A stretch of 45,533 bases of DNA, taken from positions 1-45,533 of the IMG/VR virus record IMGVR_UViG_3300024054_000024. One strand, given 5' to 3'. Under the pieces are notes generated by a model. That model did not search any database. It saw only the letters and a list, made by a program, of their open reading frames with translations, and had not been told where the DNA came from. Numbering within the stretch: the stretch's first letter is position 1; every line of letters starts with the position of its first letter. Below are positions 24,350 through 44,680 of the stretch, piece by piece. Position numbers and translations under genes: made by a program. Source of the stretch: a virus.

Positions 24350-25038
24350 GGCAGCACCTTGTCGCGGATCACCCCCTTGAGGATGGCTTCGACGGCGGCG
24401 TCGCGGCGGCGATATGCCGTGCGGCGAGAGTAGCCGAGCGCCCTGAAGAACTCGCCGAAGGCTTCGTTCTTCGCCTCGCACCACAGCCATAATTGCAGCG
24501 CCTTGCGCGCCGGCTCGTGTTCAGCCGCGCCGAGATAGCGCAGTGGCCACTGCAGCGCCGCTTCGATGCGGCTGATTTCCCGCTCGGCGCCGCCGTTGCG
24601 CGCGTCCTGAAATCCTTTGAGCGTGCCGGCTCCGGCCATTTCGACAAGCTCTCCCCACTCGACCATCGTCTGCGGCCAGACGCCGCCCTTGGAACTCGGG
24701 CCGACGCGGCCGACGAGGCGCTCGCAGCCGCGCGCCGCTTCGCGCAGGCGCAGACGGACATGATCGGTCGACCAGCGCACTTCCTCTGTCCGAATGATGA
24801 CGCCTGCGAGCAGCCGCGCCGCTCGCGCGTCGCTGATCCGGCCCGGAATGGAAGAGTCGTCGTCGAGCAGCGCGGTTTCGCTTTCTGACAAAGCAAAACC
24901 GGCTTCTGACATTTTTTCTGAAATTGCGGAGTCAGATTTTCGCGCACCAATGCCAAGAAGTGCAGAAAATCCAGCGCGTTCATGCGCCACACCTTTTCTG
25001 ACATTTTCGAATGAGCGCCTGTCAGATTTGCGAGCCAT
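24346..25038 (-). CDS. DUF6362-like phage protein
   Basis: 230 residues from ATG 25038, preceded by GGAGG. The body matches the DUF6362 pattern I know from rhizobial phages: helix HVRLRLREAARGCERLVGRV, PQTMVEWGELVEMAG, AALQWPLRYLG and the C-terminal SRRTAYRRRDAAVEAILKGV, which looks DNA-binding. The first ~55 residues hold repeated KSD / MSEA / LSES peptides created by the TGTCAGA motif cluster. Overlaps the IS110-like gene by 17 bp. Role unknown; regulation of late genes is possible. Confidence 0.7.
   Translation of the reverse strand: MARKSDRRSFENVRKGVAHERAGFSALLGIGARKSDSAISEKMSEAGFALSESETALLDDDSSIPGRISDARAARLLAGVIIRTEEVRWSTDHVRLRLREAARGCERLVGRVGPSSKGGVWPQTMVEWGELVEMAGAGTLKGFQDARNGGAEREISRIEAALQWPLRYLGAAEHEPARKALQLWLWCEAKNEAFGEFFRALGYSRRTAYRRRDAAVEAILKGVIRDKVLP
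24881..25029. repeat. Cluster of six TCTGACA/TGTCAGA motifs
   Basis: TTTCTGACA at 24882, CTTCTGACA at 24903, TTTCTGAAA at 24915, GTCAGA at 24931, TTTTCTGACA at 24994 and CTGTCAGATTT at 25019, all inside the first 55 codons of the DUF6362-like gene and in both orientations. Same core as the repeats at 23669-23726. Confidence 0.5.
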
Positions 25039-26206
25039 CCCGCCTCCAGAACTTCCAGAGGTCGCGAATGACGGCCTTTTCCATGACGCGTAAAGCATCC
25101 GCCCGCGCGTGCGCCTTGGGCCAGTCGGGATGCGTAATCGCCGTGCGTTCGCGCCGGCGGACATAAATCTCGCCGTAAGGCCCCGCCGGCTGTCCGTATT
25201 CCGTCTCGCTCTTGGCGGCGGCCACGAGTTGCACTTTCGCCATCGGCTCACCGATGCAGGCTCTGACCTCTGCCAGCCTGGTCGCGACGTAGCCGGCTTG
25301 AGTCCACTCCTCCGCCGTCAGGCCGCCTTTGCGTCTCCACTGCGAATAGGCCATGCCGTTGAACGGCGCGAGACCGAGGCGCTTCCAGAGCTTTTCCGGC
25401 GTGCTGTAGCGAGTGCCATCCGACAGGTCGCCCGTCTCGCTGACGAGGATGGCGAACGCCTTGTCGCCGAATCCACGCACGCCAGCGACGAATTCGTGCG
25501 CGGGCAATCGGCGCGCCAGCCGCTCCATTTCTCGCTCGACGACGCGGCGACGCGCGAGGATCGGCGACAAGGCGTCGCGCAGCACGGCGCCGATAGCCTC
25601 GCAGGCGTCGTAGATTTCCCTGTCCGCATCCGGCGCGTCGCCGCCGGACAGCAATATTCTGACGATGGTGTCCTTGCGCTTTAGGATTTGCGCATCGGCT
25701 TCCCCGTCTTTTTGGTTGAACCCGAGATACCGCGCGACGCGGTGCCCAAGCCGGGTCGTGATGCCCATCTGGAGCTTGATGAGCATCTTGCGCTCTCCGC
25801 CGATCTCCTGGAGCGCGGCGCAGATGGTCGCGATTTCGGAAGACGCGGAGGCGACAGGCGCGGGAAGTCGATGGCCATTTCCGGCACGTCGAGTATGGCG
25901 CCCATCGCCTCCGTTGTCCCCCTCTTGCGAAGGGGATTCTTGAGACCCGCCGGCGGAATGGAAGCGGCGATTTTGCGCGACACGGCATCGGCCGGCGGGC
26001 CTCTCCCCGCAAGGGGATTGTTGCGGCGTCAGGGGCACCACGATCCTGGCCGTTTCCGGCGATCGACTAGCGGCCCCTGACGCCTTTCCCTTGCGGGAAA
26101 CTTTGCGGGACGGCGGCTGGGAAAAGCTGGCGCTTGCGCGCGCAGATTTACTGGCCGCCGTCCCTTTCCGCTTGCGCGGAACCTCAATCTCTCGCGACTC
26201 AGACAT
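25022..26206 (-). CDS. IS110-transposase-like (helix-hairpin-helix) phage protein
   Basis: 394 residues, ATG 26206 with GGAGG upstream. The N-terminal ~70 residues are basic and disordered. Residues ~125-200 are a helical region (ICAALQEIGGERKMLIKLQM). From ~245 there is a clear IS110/IS116 C-terminal Transposase_20-type domain: FVAGVRGFGDKAFAILVSET, YSTPEKLWKRLGLAPFNGMA, then RKGGLTAEEWTQAGYVATRL. The IS110 N-terminal DEDD catalytic part is not visible, so this is probably a domesticated DNA-binding protein. It sits in the operon with overlaps at both ends, without insertion-sequence ends. The linker at ~25865-26030 shows better codon bias in another frame; see findings. Confidence 0.7.
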   Translation of the reverse strand: MSESREIEVPRKRKGTAASKSARASASFSQPPSRKVSRKGKASGAASRSPETARIVVPLTPQQSPCGERPAGRCRVAQNRRFHSAGGSQESPSQEGDNGGDGRHTRRAGNGHRLPAPVASASSEIATICAALQEIGGERKMLIKLQMGITTRLGHRVARYLGFNQKDGEADAQILKRKDTIVRILLSGGDAPDADREIYDACEAIGAVLRDALSPILARRRVVEREMERLARRLPAHEFVAGVRGFGDKAFAILVSETGDLSDGTRYSTPEKLWKRLGLAPFNGMAYSQWRRKGGLTAEEWTQAGYVATRLAEVRACIGEPMAKVQLVAAAKSETEYGQPAGPYGEIYVRRRERTAITHPDWPKAHARADALRVMEKAVIRDLWKFWRRDGSQI

Positions 26207-36918: not shown

Positions 36919-37286
36919 CAAATCTTGCCTTTCTTGCGCTTGGCGGCCTTAAAGACGCGCTCGGCGCGGTCCACCATCGCAACGCTCAAGAAACCGATGG
37001 AGAACATGAGATGACGGAACAATCCGAAAAGCCGCTTGACCCGATCGCCGTCGAACTTGCTGCGCTCAGATTGATGATGCGCGACGAATCCGACGCCGCC
37101 AGCGACGCCGTGATCGCAAGACTTTCCGGCATGGCCGACGCGGTGATCGCAGGATTCCAACCGCTTGCGAAGTCCCCGGCCGCGCTGAAAGCCGTGCGGG
37201 AATCCGCGATCGGCCTCATCGCCGATTTCAGATGGCGCGCCTTCATGGCGCGCTGGCGCGCCGAGGTCTTTGGTGAGGCGAGTCAT
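36918..37286 (-). CDS. ORF coupled to cro, antisense to the 37011-37376 ORF; doubtful
   Basis: 122 residues. ATG 37286 overlaps the cro stop (ATGA) and its own stop overlaps ATG 36918, exactly filling the gap in the operon; the first residues MTRLTKDLG match the start of the 36656-36820 protein. Against it, the body is His/Cys/Gly-rich and looks like antisense of the plus-strand ORF. Perhaps only the ends (MTRLTKDLG, and 29 C-terminal residues MFSIGFLSVAMVDRAERVFK...) are real, following partial replacement. Confidence 0.35.
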   Translation of the reverse strand: MTRLTKDLGAPARHEGAPSEIGDEADRGFPHGFQRGRGLRKRLESCDHRVGHAGKSCDHGVAGGVGFVAHHQSERSKFDGDRVKRLFGLFRHLMFSIGFLSVAMVDRAERVFKAAKRKKGKI

Positions 37287-37376
37287 TCTGCGGCCTCCCG
37301 GTCGCCATCGGCCGGCGCGGCGTTTTCGGCGAAAGCTGACGAAGGTGCGGCGGCATTACAAGATCGAGAAGGATAA
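37011..37376 (+). CDS. Plus-strand ORF antisense to cro-operon start; unknown
   Basis: 121 residues (MTEQSEKPLDPIAVELAALR...). GGAG lies ~9 bases upstream of ATG 37011. The translation is amphipathic and natural (ALRLMMRDESDAASDAVIAR, GLIADFRWRAFMARWRAEVF), with clear GC bias at third positions, so protein-coding evidence is fair. It would overlap the 3' end of cro convergently. No family. Either this or the minus ORF may be real. Confidence 0.5.
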   Translation: MTEQSEKPLDPIAVELAALRLMMRDESDAASDAVIARLSGMADAVIAGFQPLAKSPAALKAVRESAIGLIADFRWRAFMARWRAEVFGEASHSAASRSPSAGAAFSAKADEGAAALQDREG

Positions 37377-37561
37377 GGATAAATATCCGGGCGAAGCTCG
37401 TGCCGCGGAACGCCTGTCGCGCTTTCAACGTCGATTACGCGTTCCGCTGGGACGCGCTTCCACTGCGAAACCGCTTGCGGCGTGATGTTCGAGAGTCTGG
37501 ACGCGAGGCCGGTGTTTCCGCCCGCTATTTCCTTCGCTCTCTTGAGTGCTGCGTCATTCAT
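37283..37561 (-). CDS. cro: Cro-like (YdaS-type) repressor
   Basis: 92 residues from ATG 37561 (MNDAALKRAKEIAGGNTGLA). The HTH is NTGLASRLSNITPQAVSQWK, and RVPAERVIDVESATGVPRHE with LRPDIYP at the end of the fold is the YdaS/Cro pattern. The C-terminal ~30 residues are Ala/Pro-rich and dispensable-looking. No Shine-Dalgarno sequence precedes it, and the predicted -10 ends 6 bases before the ATG, so the transcript is probably leaderless. First gene of the minus early operon, diverging from the CI gene. Confidence 0.9.
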   Translation of the reverse strand: MNDAALKRAKEIAGGNTGLASRLSNITPQAVSQWKRVPAERVIDVESATGVPRHELRPDIYPYPSRSCNAAAPSSAFAENAAPADGDREAAE

Positions 37562-37567
37562 GGTGCT

Positions 37568-37608
37568 ATGAAAGCATACCTTTCCGGTCATGGCAAGCAA
37601 AAAAGAAA
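37568..37608 (-). promoter_or_regulatory. Early promoter and operator region for cro (copy A of the 41-bp repeat)
   Basis: Identical, in inverted orientation, to 39829-39869. Operator O1 GAAAGCATACCTTTC lies at 37570-37584 and a second, slightly degenerate operator GAAACCTACTCTTTC at 37605-37619, centres 35 bp apart. Reading minus: -35 TTGCCA (37596-37591), 17-base spacer, -10 TTTCAT (37573-37568); an alternative pair is TTGCTT with TATGCT. O1 overlaps the -10, so repressor binding should block cro. Confidence 0.85.
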
Positions 37609-37656
37609 CCTACTCTTTCATGGACTCGACGCGCCTGCTCAAGGATACTTTCGCTC

Positions 37657-38322
37657 ATGGACACAATCGCTAAACGTATCAAACACATAAGATCAAACGT
37701 GTTGGGCCTGTCTCAAGCGGGACTCGCCGAAAAGCTCGGCGTTACACGCGGCGCCGTCGGCAACTGGGAGCTTGGCGGCACCGTCGAAACCGAGAATTTG
37801 TTCAAACTTTCAAGTCTCGCAAACGTGCAGCTTGAGTGGCTGGCAAAGGGAGTAGGCCAAATACCGATTGGAAAGCCTCTTCGCTCCGAAGAATTCCGTG
37901 AAGCTTCAGACGTTGAACTCGGAGTAGCGTCGCCGCCGCCCTTGCCAGTCTTTTCCGCCGCAGAAGGCGGACCTGGCATCATGGTCGTGTCATCCGATCC
38001 CATCGATTTTGTTGATCGACCATGGTTCCTGAGATATGCGGCCGATTCCTTCGCAGTCTTAATCGTCGGCGATTCGATGGAGCCAGCGTACGAAGCTGGC
38101 GAAATGGCGCTCGTCAACAAACGTCTTCCTCCGATGCGAGGCAAAGACGCAATTTTCGTGTCCGCAGTTGACGGGGGGGATTTTCGGGCAACGATCAAGC
38201 GGTTTGTGAAGGCAACCGAGCACGAGTTCATCGTGGAACAATTCAACCCACGCAAAGAACTGCGACTTACTAGAACAAAATGGAACGCGGCGTTCCGTGT
38301 CGTTGGGAAATATTCTGGATGA
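37657..38322 (+). CDS. CI-like repressor, S24 (LexA-type) autoproteolytic
   Basis: 221 residues from ATG 37657. HTH: GLSQAGLAEKLGVTRGAVGN near the N-terminus. A linker with FSAAEGGPGIMVVSSDPIDF leads to the S24 peptidase domain: IVGDSMEPAYEAGEM (catalytic Ser 140) and ATIKRFVKATEHEF (Lys 181). Both catalytic residues are present, so the protein should self-cleave in response to RecA and induce the phage. It diverges from cro; target operators are probably the GAAAG-N5-CTTTC sites. Confidence 0.94.
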   Translation: MDTIAKRIKHIRSNVLGLSQAGLAEKLGVTRGAVGNWELGGTVETENLFKLSSLANVQLEWLAKGVGQIPIGKPLRSEEFREASDVELGVASPPPLPVFSAAEGGPGIMVVSSDPIDFVDRPWFLRYAADSFAVLIVGDSMEPAYEAGEMALVNKRLPPMRGKDAIFVSAVDGGDFRATIKRFVKATEHEFIVEQFNPRKELRLTRTKWNAAFRVVGKYSG

Positions 38323-38344
38323 TGCACTAGCCATGGAGGATGCT

Positions 38345-38977
38345 ATGCGCTTTATGTTAATTTTCGCGGCTGTATCAATTCCCCTCGCATCTTGCGCCCA
38401 TAAAGCAGAGCCGATTTCCTCTGGGTCATACGATGTAGTAACGAGCTATTCAAAGCGACTGCCAGGAAAATATCTATTATATATAGATGCGACAACGCTA
38501 AATACTACAATCAGGCCGCGCAGCGTCGAATGCGCAGCGCATTCGTTTCCGATCGAAGGCGAAAACGGATTTTCTGGATCGATCCGCGCGACGCTCGCAA
38601 ACGTCGTCGAAACCGTCGAAGTGGTCGGCGAGCCAATTCCGGCCGATCGATTGAGCGCCCGCGGCGCCCGCGGATTGATTGTGGTCCGCTCCGAAAATGC
38701 CGACGGCCGCATCAAGATCGAGCCGAATTTCTGGGGAGCGGCGATCACGTCGGAGATGCATATCGTCGCAACCGTGACTGTGGACGGAGCGGGCGGGCGG
38801 CTTTTCGGAACGACCGTCGAAGGCATAGGGCGCGGGGACGCTCCAGTTGGAATTATGTGCTCCGGCGGCGGTATTTCGCTTCAAGAGAGCACCGAAAAGG
38901 CCATCAAGGATGTCGTTCGCAAGATTGGCGAAGGCGTCGCAAATTCTGATCGTGTGCGCGGCGGGAAAGCGTCATGA
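38345..38977 (+). CDS. Phage-encoded lipoprotein
   Basis: 210 residues from ATG 38345, GGAGG upstream. Signal peptide MRFMLIFAAVSIPLASC with lipobox LASC (Cys 17). The mature part is beta-rich (YLLYIDATTLNTTIRPRSVE, VVETVEVVGEPIPADRLSAR, MHIVATVTVDGAGGRLFGTT). Position next to CI suggests a lysogenic conversion or superinfection-exclusion gene expressed from the prophage; this is inference. Confidence 0.75.
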   Translation: MRFMLIFAAVSIPLASCAHKAEPISSGSYDVVTSYSKRLPGKYLLYIDATTLNTTIRPRSVECAAHSFPIEGENGFSGSIRATLANVVETVEVVGEPIPADRLSARGARGLIVVRSENADGRIKIEPNFWGAAITSEMHIVATVTVDGAGGRLFGTTVEGIGRGDAPVGIMCSGGGISLQESTEKAIKDVVRKIGEGVANSDRVRGGKAS

Positions 38978-39026
38978 ACTCATGTTGAACCGGAAAATTT
39001 CAAAGACGTAATGGGAGAGACGGGCA

Positions 39027-39347
39027 ATGAAAAGACAGCGCAATATCATGATCGTATTTACCGCTGGGTCGGGCGATCTTCTTCGACTTCAAAAATGGGC
39101 GGGTGTTTGCCATCAAGCGGCAAAGAAAGTTCTTGTCTCAGAATTTCATCCGCTGATGAGGGGATGTTTTTCAGACTGCGCGGTCTTCTGCGGGACCAGT
39201 GACAATTCGCCGGAGGAGATTGCTGCGACCCTCCGAGGCGTTCTCGATCGTCGAGATTTCTTCGGAGAAGATCGATTCGCCGTCGCCGAAGTCGGAACCA
39301 TCTCGGTGTCCGACGCAGTCGCGGCCGGCGTGATTCGCCGAGGGTAA
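39027..39347 (+). CDS. Hypothetical protein downstream of lipoprotein
   Basis: 106 residues, ATG 39027 preceded by GGAGAG 7 bases upstream. Sequence LLRLQKWAGVCHQAAKKVLV, then DNSPEEIAATLRGVLDRRDF and VAEVGTISVSDAVAAGVIRR reads naturally. No motif recognised. The 3' end overlaps the convergent gene at 39171-39533 by ~175 bp, so only one of the two tails can be well conserved. Confidence 0.55.
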   Translation: MKRQRNIMIVFTAGSGDLLRLQKWAGVCHQAAKKVLVSEFHPLMRGCFSDCAVFCGTSDNSPEEIAATLRGVLDRRDFFGEDRFAVAEVGTISVSDAVAAGVIRRG

Positions 39348-39533
39348 TTCCCCAAAAACCTTGCGCAGTTCATATTCGTCTGCGTTCGGGAATACATAGT
39401 GAAGCACGCGTGCCGGCAAGCCGACGATCCGCGCCGCTGCCTCAAACGGAATAGCGAGAATTCCCGCAGTTGCCGTAATAATCGGAATGGGTTGGAAGAC
39501 GATTTTCCATTTTTCGGCGTGAATTCTGGTCAA
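39171..39533 (-). CDS. Small membrane-associated protein, convergent overlap
   Basis: 120 residues from TTG 39533, with GAGG 7 bases upstream. Residues 1-65 look real (WKIVFQPIPIITATAGILAI, RIVGLPARVLHYVFPNADEY) with a likely transmembrane helix. From about GRDCVGHRDG on, the frame is antisense to the plus gene and less natural, so the true end may differ. Unknown function. Confidence 0.45.
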   Translation of the reverse strand: MTRIHAEKWKIVFQPIPIITATAGILAIPFEAAARIVGLPARVLHYVFPNADEYELRKVFGELPSANHAGRDCVGHRDGSDFGDGESIFSEEISTIENASEGRSNLLRRIVTGPAEDRAV

Positions 39534-39828
39534 TTTTATCCTCGCGCGTGTCTCTCAACTACAGAGATTCCCGAACTCTGAATCGTTAACACGCTTATCC
39601 AGTACCCAGAGGCGGGCGCGCCTGAAGCGCGCCGCCGCGCTGATCGCAGCAGAAAATCTTGAAGCTGCGACATCGGTGGTAAGTACCAAGATTCTATCCA
39701 TAGATATTCCACTTAGCCGCGCCCGCGCCCGCGCGACCGGTCGCGCGCGGACCAAAGAACGCGCGGAGGCGCGTCACCCGCACATATACGCGCGCGGAAA
39801 CCTGATTGCAAGAAATTGAAAGTTACTC
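39534..39828. other. Intergenic region upstream of the plus operon
   Basis: No supported gene. Contains an 18-bp perfect palindrome CGCGCGACCGGTCGCGCG (39730-39747), a GC-rich hairpin GGCGCGC/GCGCGCC near 39610-39630, and operator O2 GAAAGTTACTCTTTC (39818-39832, reaching 4 bases into the repeat) upstream of the 41-bp promoter repeat. Could hold binding sites or an attachment site; nothing decisive. Confidence 0.4.
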
Positions 39829-39869
39829 TTTCTTTTTTGCTTGCCATGACCGGAAAGGTATGCTTTCAT
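39829..39869 (+). promoter_or_regulatory. Early promoter and operator region of the plus operon (copy B of the 41-bp repeat)
   Basis: 41 identical bases shared with 37568-37608. Operators: O2 GAAAGTTACTCTTTC (39818-39832) and O1 GAAAGGTATGCTTTC (39853-39867), both perfect GAAAG-N5-CTTTC palindromes with centres 35 bp apart. Promoter pair TTGCCA (39841-39846), 17 bp, TTTCAT (39864-39869); alternative TTGCTT (39837-39842), 16 bp, TATGCT (39859-39864). The leader to ATG 39902 is ~30 bases. Confidence 0.88.
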
Positions 39870-41171: not shown

Positions 41172-41531
41172 ATGAAAATAAGGTTCATGGGAATTTTGAC
41201 GGTCGAGGCGGCCTTGAAGGCCGCCGAGAATGACCCCTACGCGCTGCGCTACGCGCCGCAGGAGTCCTTCACCGAGCAGGTCGCCCTCAAGGCCGCCGAG
41301 AAGAACCCCGACGCGCTGCAATACGCGCCGCAGGAGTCCTTCACCGAGCAGGTCGCCCTCAAGGCCGCCGAGAAGAACCCCTACGCGCTGCGCTACGCGC
41401 CGCAGGAGTCCTTCACCGAGCAGGTCGCCCTCAAGGCCGCCGAGAATGACCCCGACGCGCTGCAATACGTCCTCAACTTCGAGCTCTTCAAGAAGGTGGC
41501 TCTGCAGCTCCACATCGAAATCGAAACCTGA
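41172..41531 (+). CDS. DUF4116-like repeat protein
   Basis: 119 residues from ATG 41172, with AAGGAG 6 bases upstream. Almost entirely built from a 24-residue repeat with consensus VALKAAEKNPDALQYAPQES followed by FTEQ; three near-identical units plus a degenerate fourth ending in LNFELFKKVALQLHIEI. The pattern (ALKAAEKNP.AL.YAP..) is that of DUF4116 helical repeats. Helical repeats often mediate protein binding. Function unknown; phage copies could contact a host factor. Confidence 0.8.
   Translation: MKIRFMGILTVEAALKAAENDPYALRYAPQESFTEQVALKAAEKNPDALQYAPQESFTEQVALKAAEKNPYALRYAPQESFTEQVALKAAENDPDALQYVLNFELFKKVALQLHIEIET
41208..41423 (+). repeat. Tandem 72-bp repeats
   Basis: Units 41208-41279, 41280-41351 and 41352-41423, plus a partial fourth to ~41495. 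Units 2 and 3 differ only at the codons for KNPDALQ versus KNPYALR. They keep the reading frame, so unit number can change without breaking the gene. Confidence 0.92.
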
Positions 41532-41685
41532 CCGCTCGTCATCCAGATCAGCTCAGCAATTCCCGTGCTGGGCCGCGCGCGCCGCCTCGGCCGTTTCCTC
41601 CGATCCTCCCACGCCCGAGGCGGCGCCACCACCACATTGGAGTTTCTGACATGGACGACGAAGGCGCCTCCGAATGCCGGCAGAC

Positions 41686-41955
41686 TTGACAATCTCGCGC
41701 CTTGGGGGCAGCATCGCCAAATCAGCGGTCAATCCCGCTGTGAGGCGTGGAAACCTCTTGGCTTGGGCGCAGAAGCGCCGCGATGGCGCTATTTTTGTGC
41801 GCGAAAGCACCCCGCTCTGGCGGGAGGGCGAGGATATAAGGCCCGCAAGGGCGCGAATAACTCCGCCTGACCCTGAGCCAGGTTTCCAACCTCCCGCCGC
41901 CAGCGGGGCCGTGGAAAGTCTCGTTGTCGGTTTCAAAACCGCTCAGGAGACTATC
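41686..41955 (+). ncRNA. C4-like structured RNA / leader before the antirepressor gene
   Basis: No coding potential with a start of its own. A row of short hairpins: AGCGG/CCGCT (41724-41739), GGCGC/GCGCC (41766-41779), GTGC/GCAC (41797-41810), CCCGC/GCGGG (41811-41824), GCCC/GGGC with loop GCAA (41841-41852), CCTG/CAGG (41872-41882), CCCGC/GCGGG again (41893-41907) and CGGTTT/AAACCG (41928-41941). TGGAAACCT (41748-41756) is complementary to AGGTTTCCA (41880-41888). A TTGACA -35 lies at 41686-41691, with only a weak -10. This is how the P1/P7 C4 antisense RNA looks: it binds the icd/ant leader to block antirepressor synthesis. Naming it C4 is inference. Confidence 0.5.
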
Positions 41956-42618
41956 ATGGCCGACACGCTTGCCGCTGCGCCGTCGCGCGCGCTTTCCCTT
42001 TCCGACCTCAACACCACCGTCAACCACGAGCCACGCGTCCATGACCTGCGGCTTGCGGAAGCGCTCGGGTTTGTCCAGCCGCGCGACATTCGCAAAATCA
42101 TCGAGCGCAATTGCGCGGAGCTCAACGATTACGGGGTTTGCGCCACGGTGGCGCAAACCCCCTCCAAGGGGTCTGTCGGCGGCCGGCCATCCGCAGAATA
42201 TTGGCTGAACGAACCCCAAGCCATCCTCATCGCGATGTTCGCGCGCACGGAGCGCGCGGCGGAAGTGCGTAAGCAGATCGTCGAAGTCTTCCTGCAATGG
42301 CGACGCGCCACGACGACGCCCGTGACGATCATCCATGCGGCGTCAACTCCGCAGAAGGAAGCAAAAAAGCGCGAGAACCGCATTCTCTTTTGGCGCGGGC
42401 GGCTCGACGAGGCGCAACAGATGCTGGCGCGGATCGAGCCGTCCAAGGCTCTCGATCCGATCACGGACGCCCAGACGCGCCTCACCCTCTCTCAGCGCAT
42501 CAGTATTGCTTCCTACGCCGCCGGCCTGGTCGACGGAGAGAACGGACGCAGATACCCGCCGCGCCGCGATTTGGTGCTTGAGCGCGTCTTCACCGCTTTG
42601 GAGGGAATTTCGAAATGA
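41956..42618 (+). CDS. Antirepressor-like phage regulatory protein
   Basis: 220 residues from ATG 41956, with AGGAGA 6 bases upstream. The N-terminal DNA-binding-like domain is RVHDLRLAEALGFVQPRDIR then KIIERNCAELNDYGVCATVA, followed by GGRPSAEYWLNEPQAILIAM and EVRKQIVEVFLQWRR, as in Rha/ant-type phage regulators. A second helical domain (LFWRGRLDEAQQMLARIEPS) and a basic end follow. Located directly after the C4-like RNA, as ant is in P1. The reading frame also holds a 29-bp palindrome. Confidence 0.75.
   Translation: MADTLAAAPSRALSLSDLNTTVNHEPRVHDLRLAEALGFVQPRDIRKIIERNCAELNDYGVCATVAQTPSKGSVGGRPSAEYWLNEPQAILIAMFARTERAAEVRKQIVEVFLQWRRATTTPVTIIHAASTPQKEAKKRENRILFWRGRLDEAQQMLARIEPSKALDPITDAQTRLTLSQRISIASYAAGLVDGENGRRYPPRRDLVLERVFTALEGISK
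42133..42161 (+). repeat. 29-bp perfect palindrome inside the antirepressor gene
   Basis: Arms GGGGTTTGCGCCAC and GTGGCGCAAACCCC with a single G at the centre. It encodes the VCATVAQT segment. Would form a very stable mRNA hairpin or a symmetric protein-binding site in DNA. Confidence 0.85.
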
Positions 42619-43628
42619 CCATCGCATCCCTTCCCGTCACATCGCTCGGCGCGGCTGCCGCCGCTGTCGTTGAGAAGCTCGCCGCGCCGGGCGCCATAGA
42701 GCGCATCGAGTGCCCGAACGACACCCATTGGCGCGCTCTGCGCCATGACGACGTGACCGCCAGCGTCGCAGCGGCGTTGCTCGGCGAGCACGAATGGGAG
42801 ACGGCCTATTCGCTGTTCATCTCGAAGAGCGGCGCGCTGGAGAACGACGTTGAGGACTCCGGCCCCGTGCGGCGCGGGCGCCTGCTCGAACCCGTCGCCG
42901 TCCAAGTGCTGCGCGAAGAACATCCGGGCTGGATCATCCAGCACAACGCCGCCGCGGCCCGCGTCTATTACCGAGACCCCGAGGCGCGCATCGGCGGCAC
43001 GCCGGACGTGGAGGTGCGCGACCAGGAACGCGGCTTCGGCGTGGTGCAGATCAAGAGCGTCGAGGCGTCTGTTTTTCGCCGCAAATGGTGCGCGGACGGC
43101 GCGCCGGAGCCGCCGCTTTGGATCGCAGTGCAGGCGATCATCGAGGCGGCTCTGACAGGCGCGACATGGGCTGCCGTGGCCCCGATCGTCGTAGGGCACG
43201 GCGTGGAAATGCCGCTGATCGACATCCCGCTCACAAGCGCCCCGGCCATCATGGCGCGATTGCGCGCCGAGGTCGCCGCGTTCTGGAAGCGCGTCGCGGA
43301 GAACGATCCGCCGCCGCCGGACTACGCGCGTGACGGAGCGACGATCGCTCGGCTTTACGGCGCCGACGACGGATCGACGATCGTGCTCGACGGCTGGAAC
43401 CGCGGCCCGGAACTTGCCGCAGAAGACGAGACGCTCGCGAGCGGGATCAAAGAGCTCACCGAGCGTCGCAAGGCGATCAAGGCAGAGTTGCTTGAGAAAA
43501 TTGGCTCTGCGTCTGTCGCGACGATCGACGGCCGCGTGTTCGCGACCGCGAAGACCGTAAAGAAGAAACCCTATGCCGTCGCAGCGAGCGAATACCGCGA
43601 TGTGCGCTTTTCGAAACAGAGGGCGTGA
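42615..43628 (+). CDS. YqaJ-family viral recombinase (lambda exonuclease-type nuclease)
   Basis: 337 residues, ATG 42615 overlapping the previous stop, GGAGGG nearby. Nuclease fold: DDVTASVAAALLGEHEWETA, RRGRLLEPVAVQVL (Glu 92), RIGGTPDVEV (Asp 131), then FGVVQIKSVE (Q145-x-K147) form the D-(E/Q)xK core. C-terminal helical part with LTERRKAIKAELLEKIG. It makes 3' single-stranded ends for the annealing protein encoded next; both make a Red-like system. Confidence 0.9.
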   Translation: MTIASLPVTSLGAAAAAVVEKLAAPGAIERIECPNDTHWRALRHDDVTASVAAALLGEHEWETAYSLFISKSGALENDVEDSGPVRRGRLLEPVAVQVLREEHPGWIIQHNAAAARVYYRDPEARIGGTPDVEVRDQERGFGVVQIKSVEASVFRRKWCADGAPEPPLWIAVQAIIEAALTGATWAAVAPIVVGHGVEMPLIDIPLTSAPAIMARLRAEVAAFWKRVAENDPPPPDYARDGATIARLYGADDGSTIVLDGWNRGPELAAEDETLASGIKELTERRKAIKAELLEKIGSASVATIDGRVFATAKTVKKKPYAVAASEYRDVRFSKQRA

Positions 43629-43630
43629 AG

Positions 43631-44680
43631 ATGAACGCGATCGTGAAAAAAGACGAAGTCGAGCAACTCAAGGGCCAGATCGCGAACCGCGATAGCGATT
43701 TCCGCATGGCTCTGCCGGCGCATATTCCCGTCGAGCGGTTCAAGCGCGTCGTGACGACCGCGGTGACCAGCAACCCTGACCTCATGCGCGCCGACCGTCG
43801 CTCGCTGTTCGAGTCCGCCATGAAGGCGGCCCAGGATGGCTTGCTGCCCGACGGGCGCGATGGCGCCCTGGTCATTTTCTCCGGTAAGGTTCAGTGGATG
43901 CCGATGATCGGCGGTATCCTCAAGAAGGTCCGCAACAGCGGCGAATTGCTGTCGATCTCCGCTTACGTCGCCTACACCAACGACGTGTTCGAATACACGC
44001 TCGGCGACGACGAGCACATCAAGCATATCCCTGATCTCGACGATCGCGGCAAGCCGCGCCTCGTCTATGCGATCGCCAAAACCAAGGATGGCGGCATCTA
44101 CCGCGAGGTCATGACTGTCTCTGAGATCGAGAAGGTCCGCAATGTTTCGCGCGCGAAGAACGCCGGGCCATGGAAGGACTGGTGGGACGAGATGGCGCGT
44201 AAGACCGTGCTCAGGCGACTCGCGAAGCGTCTCCCGATGTCGAGTGACCTTGACGACCTTGTGAGGCGCGACGACGCGCTTTACGAATTTGATGGGGCTC
44301 GTGCGAGGGGGACGGATGCGGCGATTGCGCCATCAATCGGCCTCGCCTCCCGCCTGGACGCGCTCGCAGCCGCTGCGGCGCCAGCACATGATTCCGCCGC
44401 CGGCGAGATTATCGAACACGAGATAGACGCGTCAGACGCCGAACCCGGCGCGTCGCAGGCCGCAGGGGAAGACGCCGGCGCCGCGCTTGCCGCCGCCAGC
44501 GATACCCTAGCGGCCGAGCCATCTCCGGAGCAGAGGGAATGGTTCCGCGCGGGCGCGGCGGCGGCCGACAATGGCGTTTCGCGCAAGGCGCTACCGCCCG
44601 AGCTGCGCGGCGACGACCGGAAGGAAGACGCTGCCGAATGGTTGCGCGGCTACGACAGCCGGCGGGAGATCGTGAGATGA
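43631..44680 (+). CDS. recT: RecT-family single-strand annealing protein
   Basis: 349 residues from ATG 43631; GTG 43625, overlapping the previous stop, is an alternative. The N-terminal half is classic RecT: ALPAHIPVERFKRVVTTAVT, ESAMKAAQDGLLPDGRDGAL, VQWMPMIGGILKKVRNSGEL, YREVMTVSEIEKVRNVSRAK, then PWKDWWDEMARKTVLRRLAK. The C-terminal ~110 residues are Ala/Glu/Asp-rich and disordered, ending in a helical tail (APSPEQREWFRAGAAAADNG-like). It anneals the tails made by the YqaJ exonuclease. Confidence 0.95.
   Translation: MNAIVKKDEVEQLKGQIANRDSDFRMALPAHIPVERFKRVVTTAVTSNPDLMRADRRSLFESAMKAAQDGLLPDGRDGALVIFSGKVQWMPMIGGILKKVRNSGELLSISAYVAYTNDVFEYTLGDDEHIKHIPDLDDRGKPRLVYAIAKTKDGGIYREVMTVSEIEKVRNVSRAKNAGPWKDWWDEMARKTVLRRLAKRLPMSSDLDDLVRRDDALYEFDGARARGTDAAIAPSIGLASRLDALAAAAAPAHDSAAGEIIEHEIDASDAEPGASQAAGEDAGAALAAASDTLAAEPSPEQREWFRAGAAAADNGVSRKALPPELRGDDRKEDAAEWLRGYDSRREIVR

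Follow-up and report, generated by a model that had tools for sequence, protein, structure and literature searches.

Genes and operators of the switch region

The IMG/VR virus contig analysed here (IMGVR_UViG_3300024054_000024) is 45.5 kb long (45,533 nt), and this whole stretch is referred to as the window. Its cro and cI genes are divergent across a multi-operator region (OR), and a second, inverted cluster (OL) lies beyond cI, ahead of an early operon with YqaJ/RecE-like and RecT genes. The leftward operon contains replication-type genes (RuvC-like resolvase, methyltransferases, primase, helicase). The gene order is that of lambda in mirror image: PL recombination genes, OL, accessory genes, cI, OR, cro and replication. 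The following features were assigned:

37283-37561, minus strand: cro, YdaS / P22 Cro-like HTH protein (PF15943 3.5e-15, phrog_35 9e-16)
37568-37619: right operator/promoter region, covering copy A and O2 of OR
37568-37608, minus strand: copy A, OR-side promoter/operator (PR, cro leftward), exact reverse complement of 39829-39869
37570-37584, unstranded: O1 of OR, GAAAGCATACCTTTC, exact GAAAG-N5-CTTTC, 8 bp from the cro ATG (7-10 bp in 36 relatives)
37593-37597, minus strand: GCAAG (CTTGC on the PR strand), conserved -35-like element or half site at an 8-bp offset from O1, as in relatives
37605-37619, unstranded: O2 of OR, GAAACCTACTCTTTC, at the OR2 position, its centre preceding the cI ATG by 45 bp (31 of 36 relatives: 44/45 bp)
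37621-37649, plus strand: putative PRM, TGGACT-17-GATACT, with transcription predicted to begin at the cI ATG or right beside it (read from the sequence; relatives have a CATANT-like -10 at the same place)
37657-38322, plus strand: cI repressor, HTH_3 with helix VTRGAVGNWE and Peptidase_S24 with Ser140/Lys181 (profile matches, CI alignment)
39818-39869: left operator/promoter region, copy B and O2 of OL
39818-39832, unstranded: O2 of OL, GAAAGTTACTCTTTC, 35 bp from O1 (OL spacing 33-36 bp in all 42 tabulated entries)
39829-39869, plus strand: copy B, OL-side promoter/operator (PL, rightward operon), exact reverse complement of copy A
39840-39844, plus strand: CTTGC, -35-like element of PL, conserved in relatives
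39853-39867, unstranded: O1 of OL, GAAAGGTATGCTTTC, exact GAAAG-N5-CTTTC
41674-42618, plus strand: Rha/Ant-like antirepressor-type regulator, PL operon (phrog_63 3e-12)
42615-43628, plus strand: YqaJ/RecE-like exonuclease, PL operon (PF09588 2.7e-8, phrog_434 1e-46)
43625-44680, plus strand: RecT annealing protein, PL operon (PF03837 5e-41)

The first-pass annotation had described copies A and B as identical in inverted orientation, and the identity holds over all 41 bases. Among the inverted repeats listed for the window, this pair is the longest and the sole perfect one; the runner-up has 38-nt arms with 71% identity. The motif GAAAG-N5-CTTTC has three exact matches in the record (37570-37584, 39818-39832 and 39853-39867), and the fourth site, 37605-37619, deviates from it by one mismatch. 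When up to one mismatch was allowed, six matches were found in the record versus 1.6 ± 1.2 in shuffled sequences. The motif scan also confirmed the doubled sites of the first-pass annotation, perfect in copy B and with one mismatch in copy A, which are spaced 35 bp centre to centre at both clusters. At this threshold OR and OL have two operators each, instead of the three of a lambda-type cluster, and no OR3 was detected at OR with up to one mismatch to the motif. The distance between OL and OR, measured from O1 to O1, is 2283 bp. Pfam and PHROG matches agree with the earlier proposal that the copies face the minus-strand cro operon and the plus-strand operon ending in recombination genes.

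O1 overlaps a putative -10 region in both copies, as the first-pass annotation described. A strict sigma-70 consensus scan called no promoter in the switch region, so the placement of the promoters rests on conservation. Promoters of alphaproteobacteria depart from the consensus of E. coli, which makes the -35/-10 assignments uncertain. Of 41 OLs, 29 keep the GCAAG element despite the lack of a partner half at OL, and its interpretation as an operator half-site only was set aside for this reason. In relatives, the CATANT-like -10 is located about 7 bp from the cI ATG, implying a leaderless cI, and cI in the window is probably leaderless as well. By analogy, OR2 in relatives seems to sit where lambda OR2 activates PRM.

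The window CI combines an HTH domain with an S24 domain carrying the Ser/Lys dyad, and S140 and K181 are invariant in 13 sequences; a scissile Ala-Gly is not evident in the window protein. Two plus-strand open reading frames are located between cI and OL. The one at 38345-38977, in the position of lambda rex, has a lipobox-like N-terminal signal (MRFMLIFAAVSIPLASC) and no Pfam or PHROG match, and is a candidate for a lysogeny-expressed surface lipoprotein or exclusion gene. The other, at 39027-39347 (106 aa), has no family match and may be co-expressed with cI. Elsewhere in the window, three 72-bp tandem repeats with at least 90% identity (41206-41469, plus strand) code for DUF4116 repeats, and an open reading frame in the leftward early region (25022-26206, minus strand) matches a PHROG transposase family.

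Related loci and the recognition helix of CI

With the window CI protein as the lone query, one distant locus was found in IMG/VR and none in GTDB contigs; DNA operator patterns were far more productive for finding relatives. The pattern of two palindromes at 35 bp returned nine IMG/VR loci and a Rhizobium sp. prophage (L014). The OR1-OR2 pattern GAAAG-N5-CTTTC-N8-GCAAG-N5-CTTTC returned 44 IMG/VR stretches, all 44 with a homologue of the window CI and/or Cro at the site and most also with an inverted OL pair at 33-36 bp. Altogether, the operator-pattern scans of IMG/VR yielded about 45 distinct virus loci, at each of which a homologue of CI, Cro or both is present, which answers the earlier suggestion to search related phages for such pairs near CI genes. 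An order-level pattern search of 397 genomes added one further locus (L064). The nameable hosts of the relatives are alphaproteobacteria. Two of four GTDB pattern matches, both in Bacterium UASB270 (L015, L016), were dropped as dispersed palindromic repeats without CI; this bacterium has many dispersed GAAAGCAGAGCTTTC / GGAGTGC palindromic repeats, which are not related to a phage switch.

The table of relatives has 42 entries including the window, and its family counts are approximate because one entry is mis-paired (L082, where OL was counted as OR) and the OL pair of L014 and the registers of L095, L101 and L107 are imperfect. The latter three form a CI clade in which OL operators are paired with GACAG-type sites at 33-34 bp, with O1 in opposite order in the tabulated register. 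OL pairs in the table are spaced 33-36 bp apart (34 bp in 25 entries, 35 bp in 10), and OL is located, inverted, 0.75-5.2 kb from OR1. At OR, the relatives have OR1, after 23 bp OR2 (GCAAG-N5-CTTTC) and after another 18 or 22 bp OR3, which is absent in about ten relatives (two-site OR). The spacing in the first set of relatives is partly ascertained, since these were found with operator patterns and OR1-OR2 is 23 bp by construction; the helix-based set described below corrects this in part.

The operators are placed at fixed distances from both start codons. The cro ATG lies 7-10 bp from O1 in 36 of 36 relatives, in 31 of 36 the cI ATG is separated by 67/68 bp from the centre of OR1 and by 44/45 bp from that of OR2, and OR3, if present, is mostly 26 or 22/23 bp from the same ATG. 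The corresponding values in the window are 8 bp (cro to O1), 80 bp (OR1 to cI) and 45 bp (OR2 to cI). The site at 37570 thus occupies the OR1 position, fixed to cro, and that at 37605 the OR2 position, fixed to cI, the two being 12 bp wider apart. With 35 bp, the OR spacing of the window is OL-like and differs from the 23 bp and the GCAAG-N5-CTTTC OR2 of the family; the OL pair, also at 35 bp and with O1 facing outward, is within the family range. Since its OR is atypical, the window is regarded as a variant of the family, to which it was assigned by helix, operator and gene order.

To find loci without an operator criterion, IMG/VR was scanned for the CI helix RGAVGNWE, yielding 79 stretches, of which 43 were new with respect to the operator patterns. 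At least one operator was present within 450 bp upstream of the helix in 22 of these 43 (null 6%) and at least two in 12 (null 2.6%). About half of the helix-only loci have no operator, and these are mostly one near-identical clade of short regulators of about 182 aa. Regulators of this kind with the helix and without GAAAG-N5-CTTTC upstream were found in L072, L074, L079, L080, L083, L084, L086 and L089, and further ones in L091, L093, L094, L098 and L103-L105. The control helix PQAV.NWE gave no stretch with operators. Among homologous S24 repressors with another HTH, no operator was found near cI in Rhizobium phages RHph_Y25, TM3_3_14B and I3_18, Agrobacterium phage Rivra, Aurantimonas phage AmM-1, Pseudomonas phage PS-1 and the S. 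meliloti pSymB plasmid prophage; likewise, phiLM21 has no GAAAG-N5-CTTTC operator near cI. The RGAVGNWE helix is present in Labrenzia phage vB_LagS-V1, and this phage carries a GAAAG-N5-CTTTC site and a CTTGC element 8 bp off. CI residues R31 to E38 are invariant in 13 CIs, with identity to the window protein down to 26%, and the window itself has both the helix and the operators.

That the operator follows the CI helix is good indirect evidence that CI reads GAAAG-N5-CTTTC, and we infer that it would do so through the RGAVGNWE helix. The relatives, with OR between cro and cI and an inverted OL beyond cI, support the interpretation of the two copies as an OL/OR-like pair, and together with the association of helix and operator they speak in favour of the proposal that one CI holds both regions.

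Origin of the 41-bp identity

For the sequence beyond O1, copy A was compared with profiles of OL and OR, with the figures taken over the 41-bp part. It scored +16.9 bits towards OL; the highest canonical OR reached +0.65 and the lowest OL +7.0. The "OR" segments of L065, L069, L073 and L087 were taken at non-canonical sites and are outside the canonical OR set; they are OL-like over a longer stretch, and none exceeds +0.65 bits over the 41-bp part. The longest run common to OR1 and OL1 is at most 20 bp in relatives versus 41 bp in the window, and OR and OL of relatives agree in the same register at no more than 29 of 41 positions. In the CI tree, the window groups with L013 (100/96), nested inside phages with a canonical OR, and the OR of L013 has the canonical 23-bp spacing. 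This placement, the OR of L013 and the OL-likeness of copy A make it most likely that the OR of the window is the derived region and OL the donor. No relative of the window with a CI of more than 56% identity was found.

The first-pass annotation had taken the doubled copies for a designed switch. An OL/OR switch is supported; the duplication, however, is not the norm of the family, and an OL-type OR is found in the window only. Because the OR of relatives is spaced differently (23 + 18/22 bp), the 41-bp identity is most likely the result of OL-to-OR copying in this lineage and not a standard design. The breakpoints of the copy map to O1, or the sequence flanking it, and to the GAAA half of O2, places at which OR and OL have sequence in common. 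Some 41 bp of copied OL would have replaced OR1 and the half of OR2 next to it, and the OR1-OR2 distance would have grown from 23 to 35 bp. OL was thus probably copied onto OR in the window lineage, a direction and mechanism read from the comparison of sequences. We favour, with moderate confidence, a temperate phage that overwrote its OR with a copy of OL by short gene conversion, possibly via its own RecE/RecT; this would have put two identical lytic promoters under the control of one repressor and added 12 bp between OR1 and OR2, with the anchoring to the start codons of cro and cI kept, a natural rewiring of a conserved switch. Phage Red-type systems recombine diverged sequences efficiently (PMC2327257). 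Our guess is that the phage's RecE/RecT-type proteins did the copying.

Instead of recent copying, selection for identical, synchronous PL and PR, by convergence or concerted maintenance, might have kept the 41 bp identical. In a single phage, OR and OL do often have the same O1 core (e.g., L007, L013, L055), but same-register identity in the other entries does not exceed the 29 of 41 positions given above, and the spacer between O1 and the GCAAG element, which varies freely in the family, is identical in the window. Operator selection leaves such identical spacers unexplained, and we regard this alternative as unlikely. We consider it very improbable that the repeat serves recombination, either as a substrate or as an invertible cassette that flips the cI segment, or that it arose in assembly. 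Perfect inverted arms do flank a 2.2-kb segment that homologous recombination could in principle flip; the arms, however, are short and lie exactly on conserved operators, no recombinase gene adjoins them, the orientation is canonical (cro, cI and OL in family order, with the cI-OR2 distance conserved), and relatives retain the gene order without long arms. Assembly collapse would need shared k-mers of more than 20 bp, and relatives share 20 bp at most. A chance or compositional repeat has a practically negligible probability: from the base composition, 2e-15 exact 41-nt inverted pairs are expected in the record, and the positions are conserved across about 40 phages, so the earlier statement that this is not a chance repeat stands.

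A further alternative concerns the reader of the sites. If Cro or another phage regulator were the main reader instead of CI, the repeat would mainly be a Cro-regulated early promoter pair. In nearly all loci a Cro homologue adjoins the operators, a QAVSQWK-type helix being common to many of these homologues; related Cro proteins, however, are also present in phages of unrelated hosts, and the operator tracks the CI helix, being recovered by the helix scan and missing next to S24 homologues with another HTH. CI and Cro usually share operators in lambdoid switches, and therefore the two readings are not exclusive; Cro as the main reader is nevertheless quite improbable.

Proposed switch and known systems

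Taken together, the two copies are very likely the OR and OL regions of a CI-controlled, lambda-like lysis/lysogeny switch with OL-to-OR copying, for which we infer CI and Cro binding, cooperativity, activation, looping, induction and the direction and mechanism of copying. In the lysogen, one CI would bind the GAAAG-N5-CTTTC sites at both regions via the RGAVGNWE helix, and CI dimers at each O1 would block the divergent lytic promoters: PR, serving cro and the replication genes leftward, and PL, serving Rha/RecE/RecT rightward. CI at 37605-37619, about 45 bp upstream of the probably leaderless cI start, would probably activate PRM as lambda CI does from OR2, and the OL and OR pairs, 2283 bp apart, could be joined in a loop as in lambda, HK022 and phiKO2. 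Upon cleavage or inactivation of CI, both identical promoters would be released together, and Cro would then act on the same sites. Since no OR3 was detected, the repression of CI by itself and that of PRM by Cro may both be weak or be mediated by other sites.

The helix and operator suggest a simple operator code (RGAVGNWE, GAAAG-N5-CTTTC) for a broad set of prophages, with alphaproteobacteria as nameable hosts, whose operators have been hard to find so far; phiLM21 itself falls outside this code. The rigid geometry of the family leads to testable predictions, namely that PRM is activated from OR2 and that cro and cI are leaderless, and the distances between OL and OR (0.75-5.2 kb) are compatible with looping. 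The window can be viewed as a natural experiment on the operator-spacing tolerance of a CI switch.

The closest PDB DNA-binding domains to the window CI by profile are those of the P22 c2 and 434 repressors (1adr, 2r1j, 1per), whose recognition helix and operator differ from those of the window. The C repressor of Rhizobium phage 16-3 has a homologous S24 C-terminal domain (about 45% to the L014 CI), and its tblastn match is confined to the C-terminal half; its operator, of the ACAA...TTGT type, would differ from GAAAG-N5-CTTTC. Phage 16-3 has two operators on each side (oL1, oL2, oR1, oR2), and in a recent survey of phiLM21-like prophages of S. meliloti, operators of the lambda type and of the 16-3 type were both reported to be absent (PMC12429752). 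Nothing on point about an earlier GAAAG/CTTTC phage operator was found in the literature searched, with most subscription journals outside it; to that extent, the helix/operator class and the OL-type OR appear undescribed, and the lambda-type OL/OR design is of a known kind.

The repressors of lambda, HK022 and phiKO2 loop OL to OR over 2.3 kb, about 700 bp and about 630 bp, respectively (PMC8053113). The 2283 bp of the window match the lambda distance, and the short distances of HK022 and phiKO2 are comparable to those of the family, although operators and hosts differ. Like lambda, the window has divergent cro and cI genes at OR, an inverted second cluster beyond cI driving recombination genes, and an OR2-like site some 45 bp ahead of cI, which is probably leaderless. 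It differs from lambda in its 15-bp GAAAG-N5-CTTTC operator, two sites per cluster instead of three, the 35-bp spacing, a YdaS/P22-type Cro and the identical 41 bp of PL and PR. With two sites in each cluster, a two-site OL throughout the family and several relatives without OR3, the switch would work like that of lambda without being identical to it.
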